From NCBI GenBank assembly GCA_022566975.1, contig JADFHV010000087.1, forward strand, positions 1-8,161: 8,161 nt of DNA. The letters run 5' to 3'. The notes under the pieces were generated by a model. It was not told the origin of the DNA. It saw only the letters and a list, made by a program, of their open reading frames with translations, and searched no databases. This stretch comes from Chloroflexota bacterium. Lineage in GTDB: Bacteria; Chloroflexota; Dehalococcoidia; SAR202; UBA11138. Positions 1 through 8,161 of the stretch are shown piece by piece. Position numbers and translations under genes: made by a program. Within the stretch, counting starts at the first letter, position 1. The number at the start of each line of letters is the position of its first letter.

Positions 1-2
1 CC

Positions 3-962
3 GGCGACGGCGGGATGTTGCAAGCGGAAAGGGACGCGGCGGACAAGCTGATCTACCAAGTCCTGCCCAGCCGCTACGGGTTGAACCCGCACCACTTGGT
101 TCAGGCCCAGGCCATCGAGATCGTTGTGGGACAGGGAGCAAAACCCGGCACCGGAGGTTTGCTGATGGGGGTCAAGGTGGCGGACGAGATCGCCGACATG
201 CGAGACCTGCCCCAAGGTATCGACCAGCGCAGCCCGGCTCGCCACCCGGACTGGCTGGGTCCCGACGACTTGGCCGTGAAGATAGAGCAGCTGCGTGAGG
301 CCACTGACTGGCGCGTGCCCATTCACGTAAAGCTAGGGGCGTGCCGGGTAGACGACGACGTTAAGCTGGCAGCCAAGGCGGGCGCCGACGCAATCGTTAT
401 CGACAGCATGGTGGCCGGCACCGGTGCGTCGGCTGAGGTTCTCATCGAGCACAGCGGCATTCCAACGGTCCCGGCCATCGTCATGGCGCGGGAAGCCCTT
501 CGGGAGCTTGGCTTGTACGGCAAGGTGAGCCTGATTGCTTCCGGTGGCATCCGCCACGGCGCCGACGCCGCCAAGGCCCTGGCGTTGGGCGCTGACGCGG
601 TAGCCATCGGCATCGCCGCCCTAATTGCTCTTAACTGCAACCGGGAAATCCCGGAGTCGGACTTTGAGGCCGAGGTAGGGGTGCCGGCCGGGTTCTGCCA
701 CCATTGCCACACCGGCAAATGCCCGGTGGGTATCACCACTCAGGACCCCAAGTTGACCAAGCGCTTGGACCCCGATGAGGCGGCGGAGCGGGTGGCCAAC
801 TTCATCAACTCCATGACCATGGAGATGGCGCTGCTGACCCGGTCGCTGGGCAAGGGCGACGTCCACAGCCTGGAGCCCGAGGACCTGGCCGCCCTGACCA
901 TCGAGGCCTCCGCCATGGCCCGCGTGCCGCTGGTCGGCACCAACAAGGTCTTCGGGGAGTAG
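3..962 (+). CDS. gltB: GltB-type FMN/Fe-S glutamate synthase domain protein (MgsC/GlxD-like), 5' truncated
   Basis: The frame is open from the left edge of the window, so only the last 319 residues are visible and the true start lies outside. The visible part is the C-terminal half of the FMN-binding synthase barrel of glutamate synthases. It begins at the end of the glycine motif (GDGGM) and continues with GQGAKPGTGG, the segment VAGTGAS, a TIM-barrel phosphate-binding segment SLIASGGIRHGADAAKAL, and an Fe-S motif CHHCHTGKCPVGITTQ whose cysteine codons are at 696, 705 and 720. In the family this domain adds ammonia to 2-oxoglutarate through a reduced FMN and a 3Fe-4S cluster. Short stand-alone versions (MgsC, GlxD) work with separate amidotransferase and GXGXG-domain subunits, and those would be expected upstream. 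The GlnT/GMAS-like gene that follows fits this arrangement. Whether the product is glutamate or N-methylglutamate cannot be decided here. The internal ATG at 15 is not a plausible start because it lies inside the conserved glycine motif. Confidence 0.88.
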   Translation, partial: GDGGMLQAERDAADKLIYQVLPSRYGLNPHHLVQAQAIEIVVGQGAKPGTGGLLMGVKVADEIADMRDLPQGIDQRSPARHPDWLGPDDLAVKIEQLREATDWRVPIHVKLGACRVDDDVKLAAKAGADAIVIDSMVAGTGASAEVLIEHSGIPTVPAIVMAREALRELGLYGKVSLIASGGIRHGADAAKALALGADAVAIGIAALIALNCNREIPESDFEAEVGVPAGFCHHCHTGKCPVGITTQDPKLTKRLDPDEAAERVANFINSMTMEMALLTRSLGKGDVHSLEPEDLAALTIEASAMARVPLVGTNKVFGE

Positions 963-970
963 CTACGAGC

Positions 971-1064
971 TGTCAGTTGTCAGTTAACCGTTGTCAGTTG
1001 ACAGTTCCAACTGAGAACTAATAACTGGAGACTGAAGACTCAAAACTAATAACTGAAAACTGAT
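971..1064. repeat. Inverted heptamer array between gltB-like gene and glnT
   Basis: The 94 bases fall into 7-base units. Five units (971-1005) follow TGTCAGT, with TGTCAGT three times plus TAACCGT and TGACAGT. After a 3-base spacer (TCC), eight units (1009-1064) follow AACTGAA, for example AACTGAG, AACTAAT and AACTGGA. The second consensus is roughly the reverse complement of the first, so the array changes orientation at about 1007 and the transcript could fold on itself. Its AT-rich composition contrasts with the GC-rich genes on each side. Short heptamer repeats of this general kind are known from other bacteria, for example cyanobacterial STRR repeats. No role is evident. Confidence 0.85.
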
Positions 1065-1087
1065 CACTTACTCCGAAGGAGTAACCC

Positions 1088-2446
1088 ATGCCCACACGAG
1101 AGGAAGTCCGCCAACAGATGCGGGAGGACGGAATCGAGTACCTCCTGGCCCAGTTCATCGACATAAACGGCTCCCCCAAGGTCAAGATGGTCCCGGTCTC
1201 CCACTTCGACGACATCATAGACCAGGGAGCCGGCTTCGCCGGGGCGGCCGTATTGGGCCTGGGCCAGGGGCCGCACTCACACGACATGCTGGCCCGCATC
1301 GACCTCGACACCTACACCCCACTCCCCTGGGCCGACGGGATTGCACGGTTCGCGTCGGACCTCTACGTCGACGGCGAGCCCTTCATGAACGACTCCCGGC
1401 TCAACCTCAAGCGGGTGCTGTCCCAAGTCAGAGAGGCGGGCTACACCTTCTACGTGGGAATCGAGCCGGAGCACTTCCTGGTGACCAGAGGCGACGACGG
1501 CTCCATCTCCGTCTGGGACCCCAACGACATAGACAACCTGGCCAAGGCCTGCTACGACTTCAAGGGCATCGCAAACGTGGTGGACTACCTCCGGGACATG
1601 ATGGACGGCATGGCCCGCCTCGGCTGGGACCCCTACCAGTCGGACCACGAGGACGCCAACGGCCAGTACGAGATCAACTTCACGTACGCCGACGCGCTGA
1701 CCACCGCCGACCGCTACACCTTCTTCAAGATGATGACCAGCCAGTACGCGCAGAAATACGGCGCCATCGCCACCCACATGGCCAAGCCATTCACCGACCG
1801 CACCGGAAGCGGTGGGCACATACACATCCACCTGGCCGACGCCTCCACTGACGAGAACGTCTTCCTGGATGAGGACGACGCCACCGGTCTGGGGCTGTCG
1901 GAGCTGGCCCGCCACTTCATCGGCGGTATCTTCGCCCACGCGCAAGCCCTGTGCGCGGTGATGTCACCCACAGTCAACTGCTACAAGAGGCTGCAGGTGG
2001 GCGCGGCGCTCATGGGGTCGCGCTCGGGGTTCCTGTGGACGCCGGCGTTCGTCTCCTACGGCGACAACAACCGGACGCAGATGATCCGCACCGCCGGCCC
2101 CGGGCATCTCGAGGACCGGACGATGTCGGCGGCCTGCAACCCGTACCTGGCGCTGGCCGCCTACGTCACGGCGGGACTCGACGGCATCAAGAACCGCCTC
2201 GATCCAGGCGAGCCCAACCTGACCAACCTCTACGACCTGGGCCTCGAGGAGATCCGGCGCAGGGGTATCCGCATGCTGCCCCAGAGCCTGGCCGAGGCCC
2301 TGGACGAGCTGCGGCGCGACGAGCTGGTCCAGGGGGCGCTGGGCGACATCTACGACGACTTCATCCAGCTCAAAGACGCCGAGTGGCGCGAGTACCATCG
2401 CCAGGTCACCCCGTGGGAGCTCGACCGCTACCTGACCATGTTCTAG
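1088..2446 (+). CDS. glnT: Type III glutamine synthetase family protein (GlnT / gamma-glutamylmethylamide synthetase-like)
   Basis: This is a complete 452-residue member of the glutamine synthetase superfamily, close to the usual size of GlnT and GMAS proteins. The enzymes join glutamate to ammonia or methylamine using ATP, in the cytoplasm as large oligomers. Visible motifs are GIEPEHF with metal ligands E126/E128, DHEDANGQYEINF with E188/E195, the ATP-site stretch RTGSGGHIHIH (238-248), NCYKRLQVG with R301, substrate-site arginines R329 and R334, and HLEDR (340-344) followed by NPYLALAA. All expected catalytic positions are present. The ATG at 1088 is preceded by AAGGAG (1076-1081) with a 6-base gap, which fixes the start. 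The gene follows the GltB-type gene after 125 bases, most of it a heptamer array. GlnT and GMAS cannot be told apart by eye. The neighbouring GltB-type gene and the more distant soxDA-like genes make GMAS a serious option. The last 157 bases recur twice downstream, and the stop codon lies in a CTAG that borders a MITE-like element. Confidence 0.94.
   Translation: MPTREEVRQQMREDGIEYLLAQFIDINGSPKVKMVPVSHFDDIIDQGAGFAGAAVLGLGQGPHSHDMLARIDLDTYTPLPWADGIARFASDLYVDGEPFMNDSRLNLKRVLSQVREAGYTFYVGIEPEHFLVTRGDDGSISVWDPNDIDNLAKACYDFKGIANVVDYLRDMMDGMARLGWDPYQSDHEDANGQYEINFTYADALTTADRYTFFKMMTSQYAQKYGAIATHMAKPFTDRTGSGGHIHIHLADASTDENVFLDEDDATGLGLSELARHFIGGIFAHAQALCAVMSPTVNCYKRLQVGAALMGSRSGFLWTPAFVSYGDNNRTQMIRTAGPGHLEDRTMSAACNPYLALAAYVTAGLDGIKNRLDPGEPNLTNLYDLGLEEIRRRGIRMLPQSLAEALDELRRDELVQGALGDIYDDFIQLKDAEWREYHRQVTPWELDRYLTMF
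2290..2446 (+). repeat. glnT 3'-end repeat, copy A (in the intact gene)
   Basis: This is the reference copy, encoding residues from about 402 to 452 of the synthetase. The segment from 2399 to the stop codon (48 bp, from CGCCAGGTCACC to ACCATGTTCTAG) is identical to the ends of copies B (3245-3292) and C (4203-4250). Upstream of that block the copies differ, so this is not one recent exact duplication. The 48-bp block carries a short inverted pair, CAGGT at 2402 and ACCTG at 2430, around GAGCTC at 2417. Confidence 0.93.
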
Positions 2447-2471
2447 CAGGCTGCGAAAAAGGGGTGTGCAG

Positions 2472-2488
2472 AGGGGCGAAGCCCCTTT
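2472..2488 (+). terminator. Weak hairpin downstream of glnT
   Basis: AGGGGC (2472-2477) and GCCCCT (2481-2486) form a 6-bp stem with a GAA loop, followed by only TT and then G. It lies 26 bases after the glnT stop codon, inside the MITE-like element. The short T run makes efficient intrinsic termination doubtful, and it may simply be part of the repeat. Confidence 0.25.
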
Positions 2489-2500
2489 GCCGGGAGTCTG

Positions 2501-2593
2501 AGAGCCTGCCCTGAGCATCGTCGAAGGGGTATCCCTCAGATACAACTTCTTCCCCCTTCCTGCCCAGAGCCTGTCCTGAGTCAGCCGAAGGAA
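2501..2593. repeat. Two imperfect dispersed-repeat units inside the MITE-like element
   Basis: AGAGCCTGCCCTGAG at 2501 and AGAGCCTGTCCTGAG at 2566 are near-identical. Each is followed within a few bases by a CGAAGG core (TCGAAGGGG at 2521 and CCGAAGG at 2585). The second unit sits between CCCCCTTCC (about 2552-2560) and GGAAAGGGGG (about 2590-2599), which can pair with one bulge. Repeats combining a CCTGTCCTGAG-type part with TCGAAGGG are common intergenic repeats in some high-GC environmental genomes. That comparison is from memory and not from a search. Confidence 0.5.
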
Positions 2594-2654
2594 AGGGGGC
2601 CAGGGGGATGGTCGAAAGGGTTTTTACGCACCCTGCTAGGCCCGCGGCCTGTCC

Positions 2655-2683
2655 TGTGAGATCGGGACCGGACTGACTATACT
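2655..2683 (+). promoter_or_regulatory. Possible promoter of the toxin-antitoxin operon
   Basis: TATACT at 2678-2683 is a good match to a sigma-70 -10 box and lies about 30 bases before the antitoxin start, within an AT-rich run (2677-2692) that stands out from the GC-rich surroundings. At the expected -35 distance (2655-2660) the sequence is TGTGAG, which is a poor match. Antitoxins of such operons often repress their own promoter, but no clear operator palindrome is visible. Confidence 0.3.
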
Positions 2684-2713
2684 ATATCTATCACTGCTTG
2701 CCAGGAGCGCATG

Positions 2714-2902
2714 ATGACCACCGCCAAAGAGGAAGTCCGGAAACTCCTCGACCAACTGTCGGACGATGCCTCATTCGAGGACATCCAGTATCACATCTAC
2801 GTCCGACAGAAGATCGCGCAGGGACTGCGAGACGTTGCGGAGGGACGGGTTGTCGACCAGGAGGAGATCGAGCATCGGATGGGTAAGTGGCTCGACGCGT
2901 AG
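2714..2902 (+). CDS. Antitoxin partner of the RelE/ParE-type toxin
   Basis: This is a small acidic protein of 62 residues from the second of two adjacent ATGs (2711 and 2714). I chose 2714 because AGGAG at 2703-2707 then has a 6-base gap, whereas the gap to 2711 is only 3 bases. The sequence runs EEVRKLLDQLSDDASFEDIQYHIYVRQKI, predicted as two or three helices, and then a charged tail ending in GKWLDA. I recognise it as the type of small protein often encoded directly before RelE/ParE-family toxins, but cannot place it firmly in a ribbon-helix-helix or other antitoxin family. It overlaps the toxin gene by 16 bases, which suggests translational coupling. Its expected role is to bind and neutralise the toxin and possibly repress the operon. 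Confidence 0.75.
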   Translation: MTTAKEEVRKLLDQLSDDASFEDIQYHIYVRQKIAQGLRDVAEGRVVDQEEIEHRMGKWLDA

Positions 2903-3210
2903 AGTGGACTGAGTCAGCCTGGAATGACCTTGAAGAAGGGGCCAATTTCATCAGGAAGGGGTCTCGCTACTACGCAGCCTCGTTCGTTGCGGAGATTCGC
3001 GATGCCACCCGCTCGTTGAGCCTTCTTGCAGAGCGTGGGCGAATCGTGCCCGAGCTGGACGAGCCATCAGTTCGCGAGATCTTCGTACGAAGCTATCGTC
3101 TCATATACCAGGTCTCGGCAGAAGCAGTGTATGTTCTTGCGGTCGTCCACGGGGCTCGAGACCTTCCGGCACTCTGGGAGCGGGCGCCTCGAGGAGGGAT
3201 CGAGAGCTAG
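2887..3210 (+). CDS. parE: RelE/ParE superfamily toxin
   Basis: This 107-residue protein starts at a GTG inside the antitoxin gene. It has the pattern of the RelE/ParE fold: an N-terminal strand and helix VEWTESAWNDLEEGANFI, a helix ending YAASFVAEIRDA, LLAERGRIVPELDEPSVREIFVRSYRLIYQV, and the final strand VYVLAVVHGARDL. The RSYRLIYQV and VHGARDL blocks are typical of the ParE toxin group. Members either inhibit gyrase (ParE) or cleave mRNA on the ribosome (RelE), and the sequence alone does not decide which. The stop codon (3208-3210) is followed directly by glnT 3'-end copy B, so the toxin-antitoxin pair fills most of the first island unit. Its base composition is less GC-biased than glnT, which is consistent with transfer. 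Confidence 0.85.
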   Translation: MARRVEWTESAWNDLEEGANFIRKGSRYYAASFVAEIRDATRSLSLLAERGRIVPELDEPSVREIFVRSYRLIYQVSAEAVYVLAVVHGARDLPALWERAPRGGIES

Positions 3211-3211
3211 G

Positions 3212-3292
3212 CAGCTGAACAACGCCGAGTGGCGCGAGTATCACCGCCAGGTCACCCCGTGGGAGCTCGACCGCTACCTGACCATGTTCTAG
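3212..3292 (+). repeat. glnT 3'-end repeat, copy B (81 bp)
   Basis: This fragment would encode the last 26 residues of the synthetase, beginning QLNNAEWREY where glnT has QLKDAEWREY. Against copy A it has five differences in 81 bp: CTC to CTG, AAA to AAC, GAC to AAC, TAC to TAT and CAT to CAC. All lie in the first part, and the final 48 bp are identical. It starts one base after the toxin stop codon. The fragment has no start codon or ribosome binding site of its own, so it is not a gene. Confidence 0.93.
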
Positions 3293-3306
3293 GGCGCTGG
3301 GCGCCC
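3292..3306 (+). other. GC hairpin after copy B
   Basis: GGGCGC (3292-3297) and GCGCCC (3301-3306) form a perfect 6-bp stem with a TGG loop at the end of copy B. No T run follows, so it is a poor intrinsic terminator. It could limit read-through from the toxin-antitoxin operon or be incidental in GC-rich DNA. Confidence 0.35.
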
Positions 3307-3367
3307 GGGCCTGAGCGATGGTAGTCTGCGACAGAGTATGCGGCAGCCCTGAAGCCATGTCATAGAT

Positions 3368-4303
3368 ATGTCCAGTCTGTTGAAAGTCACTATCATCAAC
3401 GGGGCAGTCATCGCCTCCGTCGTGTTCCACGCGCTTTGGGCCGGACCCGCACAGGCTCAAGCCCCACCACCACTACCGTTTGTCTACTCCGGCATCGCGA
3501 CAGCCGGAGGCCTTCCCGTACCGGACAGCGGCCTTGCCAACAACGGCGCGTGTATCATCCTCTGCATAACTGCACGCGTAGGAATCTACCAATCGCTCCC
3601 CGTTGCCGTCAAAGGGGGGAGCTACGTGGGCCTTACCGTTAGCCCTACAACGTCCTCCTTCGCGGGAGAGACCGTAACCTTTCACCTGGACGGTGTCCAG
3701 GCCGAGGAGACCGACTCCTACTCTACCGTGCCATTCCCCTTCATCAGAAACGATTTCAACCTGACATTCCCCAGGCTGCCGGAACCGACGCCCACGGCGA
3801 CCCCGACCGTGACGCCCACGGCCACGCCGACCGCCACGCCGACCGCAACGCCCACGGCCACGCCGACCGGGACAGCTACACCTGTTCCACCGCCCCCGAC
3901 CGCGAAACCCACGGCGACGCCGGCTGTCCTAGTGGTGCCTTTCGGAACGGAGACACTAGGCGGGACAGACGGCCCACGAGGTGGCAATGGGTCGTCTACA
4001 CCCGTTCCACTATTGATTGGGGCTCTCGCGCTTGGCGGAATTGGGCTGGCCGCTGGTGGGTGGATACTCTTGAGACGGCCGTGGCGGCGCCCAAGGCCGG
4101 GCGCTGGACGAGCTGCGGCGCAACGAGCTGGTCCAGGGTGCGCTGGGCGACATCTACGACGACTTCATCGAGCTCAAAGACGCCGAGTGGCGCGAGTACC
4201 ACCGCCAGGTCACCCCGTGGGAGCTCGACCGCTACCTGACCATGTTCTAGGGAGGTGGTGTTTGGCGCGCCCGAGTAGGGGCACTGGGAGGATGCTAGGG
4301 TGA
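3368..4303 (+). CDS. Secreted Pro/Thr-stalk protein with C-terminal membrane anchor; tail runs into glnT copy C
   Basis: The 311-residue frame begins with a signal peptide (hydrophobic 7-24, likely cut after AQA near 30). An uncharacterised, probably beta-rich extracellular domain follows (35-137; AGGLPVPDSG, VKGGSYVGLTV, GETVTFHLDGV). After it come a TPTATPT stalk (139-185), a Gly/Ser linker, a transmembrane helix (213-235, PLLIGALALGGIGLAAGGWI) and a basic stop-transfer LLRRPWRRPR. This is the plan of a surface protein anchored with its domain outside the cell. The domain family is not recognised, so no function is assigned. From about residue 243 to 295 the frame reads glnT copy C in another frame and gives an Arg/Pro-rich tail. 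The original C-terminus was probably lost at that junction. No good ribosome binding site precedes the ATG. The stop codon overlaps the GTG of the next gene (GTGA). Confidence 0.75.
   Translation: MSSLLKVTIINGAVIASVVFHALWAGPAQAQAPPPLPFVYSGIATAGGLPVPDSGLANNGACIILCITARVGIYQSLPVAVKGGSYVGLTVSPTTSSFAGETVTFHLDGVQAEETDSYSTVPFPFIRNDFNLTFPRLPEPTPTATPTVTPTATPTATPTATPTATPTGTATPVPPPPTAKPTATPAVLVVPFGTETLGGTDGPRGGNGSSTPVPLLIGALALGGIGLAAGGWILLRRPWRRPRPGAGRAAAQRAGPGCAGRHLRRLHRAQRRRVARVPPPGHPVGARPLPDHVLGRWCLARPSRGTGRMLG
3782..3871 (+). repeat. Coding tandem repeat for the TPTATPT stalk
   Basis: Imperfect 6- and 12-base units built on CCGAC(C/G)GCCACG and CCCACGGCCACG encode alternating Thr-Pro and Thr-Ala. 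Unit number in such stalks usually varies between strains through slippage. The stalk would be extended and is a plausible site for O-glycosylation, which is inference. Confidence 0.85.
4095..4250 (+). repeat. glnT 3'-end repeat, copy C (about 156 bp)
   Basis: From CTGGACGAGCTG at 4104 to the TAG at 4248-4250 this matches copy A at 143 of 147 positions. The differences give D411 to N, G416 silent, Q427 to E and H437 silent. Similarity seems to extend to GGCCG at 4095 with one base missing. The synthetase reading frame is intact inside the fragment but has no start. The surface-protein frame crosses it out of register. The changes differ from those in copy B except at the His codon, where B and C both have CAC. 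Confidence 0.93.
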
Positions 4304-4536
4304 ATGTTTGGGAAATCGCAGTGCAAGACAGCATGAACGCGCTTGGCGGGGAAGCCACATTACAACAGATTTATGAGAAGCTTCCCGATTTCATAGAGTT
4401 GACCCACGCGCACTTAAGAACGACACAATGGGGAGGGCGACCTGCGTACCAACATCAAGTCAGAAGTCATTTATCGAACCTATGCCAAGCCGGCAAACTC
4501 GTTCGAATATCAAGAGGGCGCTATCGCTTGACCTGA
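4300..4536 (+). CDS. Small winged-helix DNA-binding-type protein
   Basis: This 78-residue protein starts at GTG 4300, with GGGAGG at 4286-4291 and an 8-base gap. The pattern is a helix (VWEIAVQDSMNALGG), a second helix (ATLQQIYEKLPDFI), a likely recognition helix (QHQVRSHLSNLCQAGKL) and a wing (LVRISRGRYRLT). This resembles the winged-helix module found alone or at the N-terminus of Mrr-like restriction enzymes and HARE-HTH proteins. No nuclease domain follows. It might regulate the nearby hicBA pair or be a remnant of a larger protein. Its codon use is clearly more AT-rich than sppA or glnT, which points to a foreign origin. Its start overlaps the stop of the surface protein frame. Confidence 0.6.
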   Translation: MNVWEIAVQDSMNALGGEATLQQIYEKLPDFIELTHAHLRTTQWGGRPAYQHQVRSHLSNLCQAGKLVRISRGRYRLT

Positions 4537-4624
4537 AGTGGACTACCATTTTAGGCTGCCCAGCGAAGTCCAATGGGGCCAGCAGTGACCCTGAGTGCCT
4601 AGGCCCAGCCAACAGAGGTACAGT

Positions 4625-4834
4625 ATGAAATTCACAGTTACCGTGGACCGAGACGAAGACGGCGTCTATGTTGTCGAGTGTCCCGCCATCCCCGGATGTA
4701 TCAGTCAAGGCGAGACAGAAGAGCAGGCGTTGGACAACATCAAAGACGCCATCCGACAATGCCTTGAGGTGCGCGCCGAGCGCGGCATGCCCCTTACGCT
4801 TGGGACCCACGAAATCGAAGTCGCCGTCGGATGA
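4625..4834 (+). CDS. hicB: HicB-family antitoxin (short form)
   Basis: This 69-residue protein has the HicB partial RNase-H-like fold: KFTVTVDRDEDGVYVVECPAIPGCISQGETEEQA, then the helix LDNIKDAIRQCLEVRAERG and a final strand HEIEVAV. HicB binds and blocks HicA. This is the short form without a C-terminal DNA-binding domain, so autoregulation would need another factor. The ATG at 4625 is chosen over an in-frame GTG at 4595 because the family begins at MKFTV and AGAGGT lies at 4614-4619. Its stop overlaps the hicA start (ATGA), so the two are coupled. The order is antitoxin first, the reverse of the classical hicAB but common. Confidence 0.9.
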   Translation: MKFTVTVDRDEDGVYVVECPAIPGCISQGETEEQALDNIKDAIRQCLEVRAERGMPLTLGTHEIEVAVG

Positions 4835-5058
4835 CCTCGGTCCCGCTCCTTAGCGGCCGCCAGGTCGTCCGCGTGTTCATGACCATCGGGTGGGAGGTGG
4901 CACGCCAACGGGGCAGTCACATCATTCTCGTCAAGACCGATCATTCCGCGACGCTATCCGTTCCCGACCACCGCGAAGTGGCTCGCGGAACGTTGCGCGC
5001 GCTAATTCGACGAGCGGGTATCACGCCCGCTGAATTCATCGAAGCCAGTAAGACCTAG
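4831..5058 (+). CDS. hicA: HicA-family mRNA interferase toxin
   Basis: This 75-residue protein has the double-stranded-RNA-binding-like HicA fold: SGRQVVRVFMTIGWEVARQRGSHIILVK, then ATLSVPDHREVARGTLRALIRRAGITPAEFIEA. The catalytic histidine is H30 in the GSH motif and is intact, so the toxin is probably active. HicA cleaves mRNA and tmRNA until HicB binds it. It overlaps hicB by 4 bases. It ends 35 bases before sppA and closes the accessory island. Confidence 0.92.
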   Translation: MTSVPLLSGRQVVRVFMTIGWEVARQRGSHIILVKTDHSATLSVPDHREVARGTLRALIRRAGITPAEFIEASKT

Positions 5059-5093
5059 AGTCCAGGCAGACCCGGCAACCGGTCGGAAACACA

Positions 5094-6791
5094 ATGCTCG
5101 CCCGCCTGATCTACGTCATACAAAAAATCCTCCGGCTCCTCGGCAACCTGCGCCGTCGCCTGGGGAAGCCGCCGGACTACGTCGTCTTCGTCCTGGAGGG
5201 CCCGTATCCGGAGCTGCCGGAGCCGCGCGCCGGGTTCCTGCGACGGCGCCTGTTCCCTCGAAAACAGAGCCTGGCGGAGCTGGCGGAGCAGCTCCGGGCC
5301 GTCGCCGGGGACCATCGCGTCCGCGGCGTCGTCCTCCACCTGCGCCCGCTGAACATGCCCCCGGCCCAGGTCCAGACGCTGCGTGGCCTCATCGGCGAGC
5401 TGCGCTCCGCCGGCAAGCGGGTGGTCGCCTGGTCCCACACATACGATAGCAACGGCTACTACGTCGCCTGTGCCGCCGACGAGGTCCTGCTCCAGCCGGG
5501 TGGATTCGTGATGCCTCTGGGCATGCACCTCGGTTTCGTATTCCTCGCCGACGCCCTGAAGCGCATCGGGCTCAAGGCCGAGTTCGTCCAGATCAGCCCC
5601 TACAAGTCGGCCGGCGACCAGCTCTCCCGCAGCAGCATGTCCGACCAGATGCGAGAGATGATCGACTGGCTCATGGACGACGCACATGCCGGGTTCACCG
5701 GAGCCATAGCGGGGGGCAGGGGCCTGGACGACGATGGCGCTCGCACCCTCGTGGACAACGCACCATACGATGACCTGGCCGCCGTCGAGGCGGGGGTCGT
5801 GGACACCGTGATCGGGGAGGAAGACCTGCCGTCGCACCTGGGCAGCACGGCGAGGCCGGCCCGTCTGGCGCCGTTCGAGGCGGCCCGCGGGCGTCTGCTG
5901 CGCCGTCCGCCCGACCCGCCGGGCCGGTACGTCGCACTGCTCCGCATAGAGGGTGACATCGTCGACGGCCACAGCGAGCGGCCGCCCTCCAACGTGCCGG
6001 CACCCCTGCGCATGTTCCTGCGCCAGAGGGCCGGCGACCTCAGCGTCGTGCAGGACGCGCGCAGGGTGCTCCGCGACAGACGCGCCGCCGCGGTCGTGGT
6101 GTACGTGGACTCGCGCGGAGGCTCGTCCACGGCGTCGGAGGCCATGGCCGCCGCCCTGCAAAAGGTAGCCCAGAAGAAGCCTCTGGTCGTCGCCATGGGC
6201 GCGGTGGCCGGCTCCGGCGGCTACTACGTCTCGACCCCCGCCCACTGGATCGTCGCCCAGCCGGGCACGCTCACAGGCTCCATAGGCGTCCTCACGGGCA
6301 AGATTGCCAACGTCGGCCTCATGGAAAGGCTCCTCATGCACCGGGAGACAGTTACCCGGGGCCGGCGTGCCTCCATCTTCAGCTCCGACAGGCCGTTCAG
6401 CCAGCAGGAGCGAGCGGTAGTCTGGGACTCCATCTCAAGGGTGTACGACCTGTTCCTGGAGAGGGTCGCCCGGGCCCGCCGGATGACGGCCGAAGCCGTG
6501 GAAGAGGTCAGCGGCGGCAAGGTGTGGACCGGGAGGCAGGCAAAGGAGCACGGCCTGGTCGACGAGCTGGGAGGCCTCGACGTGGCGCTGGCCAAGGCCC
6601 GGGAGCTTGCCGGGCTCCATCCAAGGGCGCGGGTAAGCGAGGTCCCGCCGAGCAAGGGCCCGTTGCAGTCACCCGTGCCCCAGCCCATGGCCCTTTTCGA
6701 CTATGCCCTGGATGGTATGCGCACCTTCAACCGCGGAACACCCATGTACCTGTGTCCGCTGCTCTGGGACGAAGGGCTCGACGGTCTCTAG
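5094..6791 (+). CDS. sppA: Signal peptide peptidase SppA (67K type, family S49)
   Basis: This 565-residue protease degrades cleaved signal peptides at the membrane. It has the long two-domain SppA layout. The N-terminal S49-like domain (about 30-245) carries the catalytic lysine K171 in SPYKSAGD. The C-terminal domain (about 275-505) carries the nucleophile S374 in AVAGSGGYY, then GTLTGSIGVL and VWTGRQAKEHGLVDELGG. The Lys-Ser distance (203) is close to that of E. coli SppA (K209/S409). The N-terminus (1-20, LARLIYVIQKILRLLGNL) is an amphipathic, basic helix and not a clear transmembrane segment, so the protein may be peripheral. The ribosome binding site is weak (GGAAA at 5085). Strong G/C preference at third positions marks it as core-genome sequence, unlike the island genes before it. 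Its TAG stop lies in CTAGCAGGCTG, the same string seen at the end of glnT. Confidence 0.95.
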   Translation: MLARLIYVIQKILRLLGNLRRRLGKPPDYVVFVLEGPYPELPEPRAGFLRRRLFPRKQSLAELAEQLRAVAGDHRVRGVVLHLRPLNMPPAQVQTLRGLIGELRSAGKRVVAWSHTYDSNGYYVACAADEVLLQPGGFVMPLGMHLGFVFLADALKRIGLKAEFVQISPYKSAGDQLSRSSMSDQMREMIDWLMDDAHAGFTGAIAGGRGLDDDGARTLVDNAPYDDLAAVEAGVVDTVIGEEDLPSHLGSTARPARLAPFEAARGRLLRRPPDPPGRYVALLRIEGDIVDGHSERPPSNVPAPLRMFLRQRAGDLSVVQDARRVLRDRRAAAVVVYVDSRGGSSTASEAMAAALQKVAQKKPLVVAMGAVAGSGGYYVSTPAHWIVAQPGTLTGSIGVLTGKIANVGLMERLLMHRETVTRGRRASIFSSDRPFSQQERAVVWDSISRVYDLFLERVARARRMTAEAVEEVSGGKVWTGRQAKEHGLVDELGGLDVALAKARELAGLHPRARVSEVPPSKGPLQSPVPQPMALFDYALDGMRTFNRGTPMYLCPLLWDEGLDGL

Positions 6792-6881
6792 CAGGCTGTG
6801 GACAGGTGCATCTCATCGGCTTCGTAGGGGCACGGCATGCCGTGCCCCTACATTGACAGTAGGTAGGCGACCACCAGCCTG
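6792..6881. mobile_element. Possible short relative of the MITE-like element after sppA
   Basis: The segment begins CAGGCTGTGG directly after CTAG of the sppA stop codon and ends CCACCAGCCTG, which reads CAGGCTGGTGG in reverse complement. The first seven bases match the terminal repeat of the element after glnT. A perfect palindrome fills the middle. CTAG is absent on the right side, so a target duplication is not supported. Confidence 0.35.
6824..6851. repeat. 28-bp perfect palindrome downstream of sppA
   Basis: GTAGGGGCACGGCA is followed directly by its exact reverse complement. As RNA it would form a strong hairpin 32 bases after the sppA stop codon. The next bases are ATTGACAG with no T run, so classical termination is unlikely, but it could protect the sppA mRNA end. 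Palindromes of the GTAGGGGC type are familiar dispersed intergenic repeats in several environmental phyla. That recognition is from memory. Confidence 0.85.
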
Positions 6882-7039
6882 TCCGGCTGTTGGGAAACCC
6901 GGCACGACCCCCAGGCCGTGGCTCCGCACGTTGCATGCGAGACCCGGATGAAAGAGAATTGCCGGGCCTGGGCCTCAGGCGTGGGCGACGACAAGCTGCT
7001 TTCACAGTAATGACATAGAGAAGAGGGCAAGGTATTATC
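6882..7039. other. Non-coding stretch before soxD
   Basis: No frame on either strand looks like a real gene here. TGCTTTCACAGTAATGACA (6998-7016) looks like a worn version of a dispersed hairpin repeat whose usual form ends in GGAATGACA. ACCCGG (6941) and CCGGG (6962) can pair around a 14-15-base AT-richer loop. I see no convincing promoter for soxD. No soxB-like gene is present in this space. Confidence 0.4.
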
Positions 7040-7065
7040 CTCTCCCCCGGCTCCGCGGGGGAGAG
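7040..7065. repeat. Hairpin just upstream of soxD
   Basis: CTCTCCCCC (7040-7048) and GGGGGAGAG (7057-7065) form a 9-bp perfect stem, and one more G-C pair leaves a 6-base loop. It ends 21 bases before the soxD start. It resembles the CCTCTCCC-type intergenic repeats of many environmental genomes. Its position could place a structure next to the soxD ribosome binding site, which is inference. Confidence 0.7.
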
Positions 7066-7086
7066 TTAGAGAGGGGCCTTAAGGAG

Positions 7087-7362
7087 TTGGCGTTTCTGCT
7101 GACGTGTCCCAACTGCGGCGCCCGCGACGTCCATGAGTTCCGCTTCGGCGGCGAGGTCACGAAGCGGCCCTCGCCCGACGCCTCGGGCGACACCTGGACC
7201 GACTACTTCTACCTCAGGACCAACGCGGCCGGGCCCCAGAGGGAGTGGTGGTACCACAAATTCGGGTGCCGCAGGTGGTTCATCGCGATTCGCGACACCG
7301 TGACCAACGAGGTGGAGCTAACGTCCTGGCCCGAGATAGAGGGGCCGTCCTTCCAAGAGTGA
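7087..7362 (+). CDS. soxD: Sarcosine oxidase delta subunit family protein (SoxD / MgdB-like)
   Basis: This 91-residue zinc-binding subunit has CPNCG (C7, C10) near the start and WWYHKFGCRRWF with H57 and C61. These match the Cys2-His-Cys zinc site of SoxD, and FRFGGEVTKRP is also typical. In heterotetrameric sarcosine oxidases and N-methylglutamate dehydrogenases this small subunit is structural. A TTG start at 7087 gives the N-terminus MAFLLTCPNCG usual for the family, but AAGGAG (7081-7086) touches the TTG with no gap. A CTG at 7096 would have a 9-base gap and give MLTCPNCG. No ATG or GTG is available. The soxA-like gene follows after 60 bases. The usual partner soxB is not upstream in this window. 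Confidence 0.88.
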   Translation: MAFLLTCPNCGARDVHEFRFGGEVTKRPSPDASGDTWTDYFYLRTNAAGPQREWWYHKFGCRRWFIAIRDTVTNEVELTSWPEIEGPSFQE

Positions 7363-7422
7363 CGTTAAGGCGACATGGATAGCTAGACCAACGAAGATGC
7401 CACGCGAGGGCGACGTGCAAGG

Positions 7423-8161
7423 ATGACCAGCGCTAGGCCGAGCCATCGCCTGGGCCCCAGTCCCACGCAGGCCATCGACCGCTCGAAGACGGTCGTCTTC
7501 GAGTTCGACGGCAGGCCCGTCGAGGCCTACGAGGGCGACACCGTCGCCTCAGCCCTCTACGCCTCCGGGGTCAGGACCTTCTCACGCAGCTTCAAGTACC
7601 ACAGGCCCAGGGGGCTCCTCTGCGCCGGCGGCAACTGTGCCAACTGCCTGATGACCGTCGACGGCGTGCCCAACGTGCGGGTCTGCATCGAGCCGGTGCA
7701 GGGCGGCATGTCGGTGCGGGGACAGAACGCGTGGCCATCGGTGGAGCGGGACCTCCTCTCGGTCCTTGACAAGCTGGGCAGGCTGATGCCGGTCGGCTTC
7801 TACTACAAGACCTTTCATCGGCCCAAGCTCTTCTGGCGACTGGCCCAGCCTGTGGTCCGACGCGTGGCAGGGCTGGGCTCCCTGGAGACGGCCGACCCGC
7901 CGGACAAGAGATTCACGCACCGCAACGCCCATACCGACGTCGCAGTGGTCGGAGGCGGCCCGGCCGGTCTCTCGGCCGCGCTGGCGGGAGCCGAGTCGGG
8001 GGCCTCGGTAACGCTCATCGACGACCAGGCGGAGCTGGGCGGCCATCTTCGTTGGGATACCCGCGCATACCACGACGTCCCAGACCTGGCCGACGCTGCA
8101 GGGTTCGAGATCGGCCGGAGCCTTGCCGACTCCGTTCGGGCTGCCGATCAGATCACCGTGC
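7423..8161 (+). CDS. soxA: SoxA/HcnA-type amine dehydrogenase alpha subunit with [2Fe-2S] domain, 3' truncated
   Basis: The frame is open to the window end and 246 residues are visible, roughly the first quarter of a SoxA-size protein. An N-terminal ferredoxin-like domain (about 22-95) contains GDTVASALYASGVRTFSRSF, then KYHRPRGLLCAGGNCANC with C67, C72 and C75, and C88 further on, the four ligands of a [2Fe-2S] cluster. A Rossmann FAD/NAD site VAVVGGGPAGLSAA (174-187) and TLIDDQAELGGHL follow. The ATG at 7423 is the only start after the in-frame stop at 7384. AAGG adjoins it and the ribosome binding site is weak. With SoxD upstream it should belong to a complex that oxidises a secondary or tertiary amine (sarcosine, dimethylglycine or N-methylglutamate). 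As I recall, classical sarcosine oxidase alpha subunits have lost these cysteines, so cluster retention suggests an electron-transferring dehydrogenase, nearer to HcnA-type proteins. Confidence 0.88.
   Translation, partial: MTSARPSHRLGPSPTQAIDRSKTVVFEFDGRPVEAYEGDTVASALYASGVRTFSRSFKYHRPRGLLCAGGNCANCLMTVDGVPNVRVCIEPVQGGMSVRGQNAWPSVERDLLSVLDKLGRLMPVGFYYKTFHRPKLFWRLAQPVVRRVAGLGSLETADPPDKRFTHRNAHTDVAVVGGGPAGLSAALAGAESGASVTLIDDQAELGGHLRWDTRAYHDVPDLADAAGFEIGRSLADSVRAADQITV

Follow-up and report, generated by a model that had tools for sequence, protein, structure and literature searches.

Repeated 3' ends of a glutamine synthetase gene beside small cargo genes in a SAR202 Chloroflexota contig

How can the 3' end of a metabolic gene come to stand three times in a row, each time behind different small genes, with the gene itself left intact? 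This question is raised by the glnT-like gene for a type III glutamine synthetase on contig JADFHV010000087.1 of the Chloroflexota bacterium assembly GCA_022566975.1 (Dehalococcoidia, SAR202), of which positions 1 to 8,161 of the forward strand were analyzed. The whole stretch of 8161 bp is referred to as the window, and every gene in it lies on the plus strand, as do the features described below. An original prediction, made from the letters of the window, had explained the three gene ends by repeated insertion at the 3' end of the gene with restoration of that end, in the manner of integrative elements but on a very small scale and with no integrase seen, and had named tandem duplication as the main alternative. 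The comparison with related genomes supports insertion and restoration, and it points to the copy furthest downstream as the native end of the gene.

The glnT 3' end is present in three copies

The host gene of the insertions (1088-2446) is intact, as had been predicted. It encodes 452 amino acids with Pfam matches to Gln-synt_C (6e-93) and to Gln-synt_N (4e-8, 0.1 bit below the cut-off), and its homologue P0001, from a contig of 3257 bp, is 99.8% identical. The tail of the gene itself (copy 1, 2290-2446) is followed by copy 2 (3212-3292, 81 bp, 94% identical to the gene) and copy 3 (4095-4250, 156 bp, 96%). Self-BLASTN of the window gave three repeat pairs, 2290-2446 with 4095-4250 (157 columns, 96.2%), 2366-2446 with 3212-3292 (81 bp, 93.8%) and 3213-3300 with 4171-4258 (88 bp, 93.2%), and a separate repeat search returned the same places. 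When the last 51 glnT residues were used as a tblastn query against 81 sources, copy 3 was found with an E-value of 1e-29 and copy 2 with 1e-13, which excludes chance similarity. Copies 2 and 3 are truncated on their 5' side, and all three copies finish at the stop codon, in TTCTAG. The gene ends at 2446, 3292 and 4250 and their end-to-end spacings of 846 and 958 bp were thereby confirmed.

The final 48 bp are the same in all three tails and the differences lie upstream of this block. Copy 2 reads QLNNAEW where relatives keep QLKDAEW, and copy 3 has RRNEL for the conserved RRDEL; such changes at conserved positions would be expected of pieces freed from selection. Among 12 homologues compared, those closest to the copies were P0001, which is window-like, and P0006. 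Relative to the window protein, the latter has 61 differences in 452 residues but only 1 among the 51 at the C-terminal end (hypergeometric p 0.004, uncorrected, for the best of the 12 homologues), which may mean that 3' parts of glnT are exchanged between lineages. P0006 has a mosaic appearance, with 47 of the 61 differences falling within the first 200 residues.

Copy 3 is collinear with the native gene end of a relative

In the related locus L004, which encodes a glutamine synthetase 81% identical to that of the window, glnT, mrrN and hicB follow each other contiguously. Window positions 4123-4871 align with 11232-11984 of L004 as one block of 755 columns with 80% identity, which covers most of copy 3, the intergenic stretch, a small Mrr_N/AbiEi-like open reading frame (ORF; 4300-4536, 87% amino acid identity to L004, both Pfam matches below the cut-off), hicB and the start of hicA. 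The hicB-hicA toxin-antitoxin pair, assigned by Pfam and by the comparison with L004, occupies 4625-5058. The Mrr_N-like gene is separated by 53 bp from the glnT stop in L004 and by 49 bp from copy 3 in the window. When alignments downstream of each end were anchored at the stop codon, the similarity of copy 3 to L004 was reached by 6 of 2000 shuffles, compared with 1126 for the gene and 1033 for copy 2.

Because copy 3 is collinear with the glnT end and the neighbours of L004, it is read, together with the DNA downstream of it, as the displaced native end of glnT with its old neighbours. Approximately 1.6 kb, comprising a miniature inverted-repeat transposable element (MITE), parDE, copy 2 and a surface-protein gene, now parts glnT from this end, and the DNA from 2446 to ∼4095 appears to have been inserted. 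The contiguous order in L004 thus supports the predicted insertion at the gene 3' end, with the host gene restored and its old end moved beyond the insert.

Two small gene units lie between the copies

The first cargo consists of an ORF of 63 amino acids in the position of parD (2711-2902), regarded as the antitoxin from its place beside parE and without a Pfam match, and of a ParE-like toxin gene (2887-3210; PF05016, 2e-15). The toxin of 107 amino acids is apparently complete, as the 88 homologues listed are 63-121 amino acids long, mostly 97-110. A leader of ∼70 bp lies between the MITE and parD, and a single base separates the parE stop (3208-3210) from copy 2.

The second cargo follows copy 2 after a leader of 75 bp and is a surface-protein ORF (3368-4303) with a signal-like start, a TP-rich linker and a C-terminal membrane segment, without a Pfam match. 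The gene lacks its own stop, as the native part extends to ∼4094 and the frame then crosses copy 3 up to 4303. The best homologue is 62% identical across 37% of the query. Six of the eight homologues fetched finish as a short basic tail past the transmembrane segment, P0124 is longer past that segment and P0137 lacks it. An origin of the cargo by reverse transcription was considered and set aside; RVT_1 had no match in G001, the L004 genome, or in G002, the relative described below.

The glnT-soxD gap takes up small genes in relatives

The best 80 of 123 glnT loci were kept, and 79 of them could be tested (in one, glnT is truncated). A second glnT tail with E <0.05 was found in none of the 79, so that the search for other cargo between glnT-end copies, which the original prediction had proposed, yielded no further case. 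Titles naming Chloroflexi/Chloroflexota, Dehalococcoidia or SAR202 belong to 36 of the 80 loci (L001-L034, L063 and L070), save L007, which is titled SAR324. In 27 of these 36, glnT is followed by soxD, and the gap from match end to match end is 4-136 bp in 22 loci and >150 bp in five. The five wide gaps (L004, L006, L011, L024 and L025) contain small genes, which include hicB or hicBA in three of them. The arrangement in the window is unusual, but the glnT-soxD gap is a site that takes up small genes in relatives.

A detached glnT tail was also sought with the 51-residue query in 34 genomes, and all listed matches lay in frames of at least 369 amino acids except two at contig edges, in G005:C47 (cut by the contig end) and at G028:C36:6-92. 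A degenerate pattern of the glnT tail had no match in viral contigs, and the phage search gave no match. The plasmid search gave one weak match, to a Nonomuraea record (9% of the query, 72.6%).

Gene-end scars recur on the chromosome contig of a relative

The relative G002, whose glutamine synthetase is 82% identical, is represented by a chromosome contig of 2,517,953 bp, compared with a listed genome size of 2.7 Mb. This contig was scanned for direct repeats of 50-400 bp with at least 85% identity and at most 8 kb apart. The scan gave 123 pairs, of which 11 occur exactly twice, and seven of these 11 are gene ends with other DNA between the copies (five tails and two heads). All seven host genes have Pfam matches. 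The tails belong to a class III aminotransferase gene (148 bp, 99.3%, with one zinc-ribbon gene between the copies), a DUF3800 gene (179 bp, 90%), an hsdS-type gene (109 bp, 93%, with a DUF433 gene among the genes between), a DAO-family oxidoreductase gene (232 bp, 98%) and a glycosyltransferase gene (95 bp, 87%). The heads are those of a DUF1156 gene (59 bp, 95%) and of an F420-oxidoreductase gene (188 bp, 88%). At the glycosyltransferase and DUF1156 genes the DNA between the copies is multi-copy and MITE-like, not a gene. The hsdS pair counts as two copies with the fragment as query and as three with the gene copy as query, and the DAO tail, with a repeat that runs 111 bp beyond the stop, lay outside the rules of the looser scan described below and was classed by reading. 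A further case is the head of hsdR (65 bp, 98%), which stands outside the set of 11 owing to a third copy; its cargo is a nucleotidyltransferase-like gene. This type of scar thus recurs in one relative, at 3' and at 5' gene ends, and is tied to no single sequence.

The other four pairs were not counted as gene ends. The pair at 855 kb is hairpin-like and starts at a stop codon, that at 1562 kb is an internal SoxA-like piece joined to the DAO tail, that at 1762 kb is internal and near a gene start, and that at 1773 kb is a tandem repeat. In the sarcosine-oxidase-like cluster at 1562395-1567402, a piece of a SoxA-like gene and the DAO-family tail stand joined behind two other genes.

An initial scan, which covered 1.6 Mb of G002, gave 21 rows, and a looser scan of the whole contig gave 94 tails and 67 heads, mostly arrays of repeat proteins, MITEs and chance frames; filtering for pairs present few times left 10 tail and five head rows, and the 11 pairs are those present exactly twice. 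The looser scan gave eight tails and two heads in 280 kb of G013. Two-copy pairs of whatever kind numbered four in the 80 glnT loci and one in the 280 kb of G013. For the helicase-like and zinc-ribbon genes behind the aminotransferase of G002, 18 other genomes gave no close match over the full length; one partial match of 69% lies at a contig edge of G007.

A proposed route by circularisation and a single crossover

As an explanation of the arrangement it is proposed that incoming DNA with a gene end was circularised and integrated by homologous recombination with a single crossover, which is regarded as moderately probable. The ancestral order would have been that of L004, glnT-mrrN-hicB. The donor molecule would start inside the glnT of the donor, 81 or 156 bp before its end, run past the stop into one short downstream gene unit and break at or in the last codons of the cargo gene. 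Joining of the two fragment ends would give a circle, and one homologous crossover in the glnT tail would integrate it, leaving an intact hybrid glnT, the cargo and then the old tail of the recipient, cut at the position of the broken end of the donor fragment. The surface-protein insertion would have occurred first and parDE later at the gene, unless both arrived as one block, because copy 3 has bases upstream of the start of copy 2 and so cannot be derived from it. The MITE would have landed in the stop codon of glnT. We infer this order of events, as well as the circular intermediate, the RecA crossover and donors in which glnT is followed by parDE or by the surface-protein gene.

The unequal starts of the copies fit the random broken ends that such a route would predict, and the loss of the stop of the surface-protein gene at the joint with copy 3 would be natural for a ligation joint and odd for an evolved element. 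In Escherichia coli, linear DNA with homology at one end is degraded, or it is circularised and integrated by a recA-dependent single crossover (PMC3240628). In that assay a duplication was detected by PCR in 56 of 60 Lac- clones, and the 14 sequenced had partial lacZ duplications of 109-950 bp (PMC3240628). Among small variable segments, 10-18% are described as flanked by direct repeats, mostly <30 bp (PMC2884548).

Several observations weigh against this route. The tail copies begin 1, 8 and 13 bases past the cargo stop for parE, the zinc-ribbon gene and the DUF3800 case, respectively, and such neat borders are more cassette-like than those expected from random breakage, after which parts of additional genes should frequently remain. 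If the process is unguided, it is also a coincidence that the same gene was hit twice. The identical block of 48 bp would also suit a site-specific core, and G002 has a match to a serine recombinase (PF00239) at a distance of ∼4 kb from the DUF3800 case. The donor arrangement was not found, as DNA searches of 34 relatives' genomes, performed without a positive control, gave two partial matches for the first cargo and none for the non-repetitive part of the second. No detached gene tail was seen in 1.29 Mb of the 80 other loci, where the pairs in L065 and L066 were set aside with the right copy in a long frame. In G002, the DUF1156 and glycosyltransferase scars, with their MITE-like interior, may have another history. 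Neat borders, the shared 48 bp and the missing donor leave room for a guided process.

Alternative explanations

One alternative is site-specific integration, in which small elements use the glnT 3' end as attachment site, served by a recombinase encoded elsewhere, and restore the gene as e14 does at icd. The anatomy matches that of e14/icdC (PMC11148124), one site has received two insertions, the copies agree over the final 48 bp and their clear homology stops near the stop codon. However, alike as the terminal 48 bp are, the copies begin at different bases, 81 and 156 bp from the end, and the unequal lengths would argue, in agreement with the original prediction, against one crossover point. 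No integrase was found among the ten window proteins tested. In the genomes of 15 relatives, many of them fragmented, no contig with glnT has a PF00589 match less than 10 kb from the gene; the nearest, at ∼12 kb, is in G002, where PF00589 matches twice and PF00239 three times. As a second tail is also absent from the 79 testable loci, and like scars occur at gene heads as well as at unrelated sequences of G002, site-specific integration is considered rather unlikely, and the predicted likeness to integrase-borne elements was not upheld. Homology-facilitated illegitimate recombination (HFIR) of linear DNA, with a crossover in the glnT tail, end joining upstream and duplication of the stretch between, would account for the variable lengths and for the absence of an integrase. 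In the E. coli assay, however, it was predicted to give a deletion, which was the outcome in 4 of 60 clones compared with 56 with a duplication (PMC3240628), and HFIR is judged unlikely here, with the caveat that the outcome alone does not tell it from the route through a circle.

The contig itself could be an artefact of assembly, with the neighbourhoods of glnT from several strains strung together by way of the 48 bp that they share. The identity of the three tails over this length would allow it, and serial misjoining of two real single insertions is conceivable, but the joints of parE with copy 2 and of the surface-protein gene with copy 3 are not part of the identical block and would have to be present in actual molecules. 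Since several substitutions separate the copies and the same type of scar is present in the single-contig chromosome assembly of a relative, an artefact is very unlikely. Tandem duplication of glnT, or of its end with the downstream DNA, followed by decay and later gene insertions, would place three copies near each other in direct orientation, as observed. A similarity of 25 columns between the end of parE and the part of glnT that precedes the repeat, reached by 19 of 2000 shuffles in one of three comparisons, is a possible remnant, but the two remaining upstream comparisons were at chance level (1288 and 1517 of 2000). Stop-anchored alignments downstream of the copies were reached by 119 of 2000 shuffles for copy 2 with copy 3, by 80 for the gene with copy 2 and by 2000 for the gene with copy 3, so that the first two similarities appear borderline. 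The claim that no clear homology lies downstream of the three copies was thus about right among the copies, with the addition that the DNA downstream of copy 3 reads as the native one. Tandem duplication, for which several extra deletions would be required, is disfavoured by the lack of any clear repetition of the downstream DNA, and from the main alternative of the original prediction it becomes an extremely improbable one.

The guided process for which the above observations leave room could be a more regular system. Gene ends might act as portable landing pads in these Dehalococcoidia, as an integrase-free cassette system that works by homologous recombination alone, which is considered quite unlikely. 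A unit that has acquired the tail or head of a core gene would leave as a circle and could enter that gene again in any related cell, each time with restoration of the gene, and a toxin-antitoxin cargo would select against loss between the direct repeats. On this reading, the neat borders of 1, 8 and 13 bases would be the mark of a capture step at gene ends.

Relation to known systems

Integron gene cassettes are likewise short units in a common orientation that all end in a shared sequence, and they often consist of toxin-antitoxin pairs. In contrast, the shared sequence here is a piece of the neighbouring gene, and an integron integrase was not found among the ten window proteins.

In the partial lacZ duplications of E. 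coli, as here, part of a gene end is directly duplicated on the two sides of an insert, over a length that varies and without an integrase (PMC3240628). That system is a laboratory conjugation assay with plasmid DNA, whereas the present case is natural, has occurred repeatedly at one gene, has counterparts at several genes of a relative, and involves small toxin-antitoxin or single-gene cargo. The prophage e14 at icd of E. coli K-12 also leaves its host gene intact, with the 3' end duplicated past the insert and bearing substitutions (165 bp with 12 nucleotide exchanges; PMC11148124). In contrast to the cargoes of ∼0.8 kb described here, for which no integrase was found and the tails are unequal, e14 has a putative integrase gene. 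Successive additions that push older ends back are known from the displaced effector 3' ends and orphan immunity arrays of the type VI secretion system of Vibrio cholerae (PMC5361080). For these displaced effectors, Kirchberger et al. proposed an HFIR-like process and described an integron-like order without evidence of an integrase (PMC5361080). There, a new module replaces the effector or its end, whereas in the window the metabolic gene is restored without change and has no relation to its cargo.

The locus may be read as a variant of a known outcome of homologous recombination, which here has occurred more than once at the same gene and recurs in one relative. Judged by titles and abstract openings, gene-end duplication at glutamine synthetase was not the subject of any of the publications listed. 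Displaced gene ends of this kind may be a readable scar of the settlement of small genes without a transposase or integrase, as the old end shows where the joint lies, in which direction the insertion took place and, in some cases, which event came first. Automatic counting of these scars is feasible, and in uncultured lineages it could reveal how much of the gain of small genes is due to plain homologous recombination. Leftover tails could pass wrongly for pseudogenes or attachment sites.

The MITE-like element and other features of the window

The MITE-like element (2446-2636) was recognised by direct reading and by related copies in the L004 genome. It has the inverted ends GCAGGCTGCG and GCAGGGTGCG, is flanked by TA on both sides (2444-2445 and 2637-2638) and sits within the stop codon of glnT, for which it provides the G, so that the codon is still TAG. 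The MITE and the toxin-antitoxin pair had been taken as one unit. Both do lie between the gene and copy 2, but the MITE reads as an insertion separate from those of the cargo. As a carrier of parDE it was rejected, with no cargo found between its two ends, and CTAG as its flanking duplication was dropped in favour of TA after inspection of the copies in G001. With one mismatch permitted, the pattern of the MITE ends is present in one of 15 genomes. In G001, 63 matches to a query of 2 kb were obtained, and the majority of those listed lie in the MITE part. One stretch of G002 with MITE-like repeats gave >100 matches. The position in the glnT stop, together with a sequence like the left end of the element behind the sppA stop (below), may mean that this MITE family prefers the TA of stop codons.

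The gene order in the window is glutamate-synthase-like gene, type III glutamine synthetase gene, parDE, surface-protein gene, Mrr_N-like gene, hicBA, sppA and soxD, followed 3' of soxD by a stretch with a match to soxA-like genes. The interval between the glutamate-synthase-like gene and glnT (962-1087) is packed with AACTGA-rich short repeats. Between hicA and soxD, an sppA-like peptidase gene (5094-6791) has two S49 stretches, and it had no match in the L004 locus. Past the stop of this gene, at 6789-6900, TAGCAGGCTG repeats, as judged by eye, the left end of the MITE and is followed by a hairpin.

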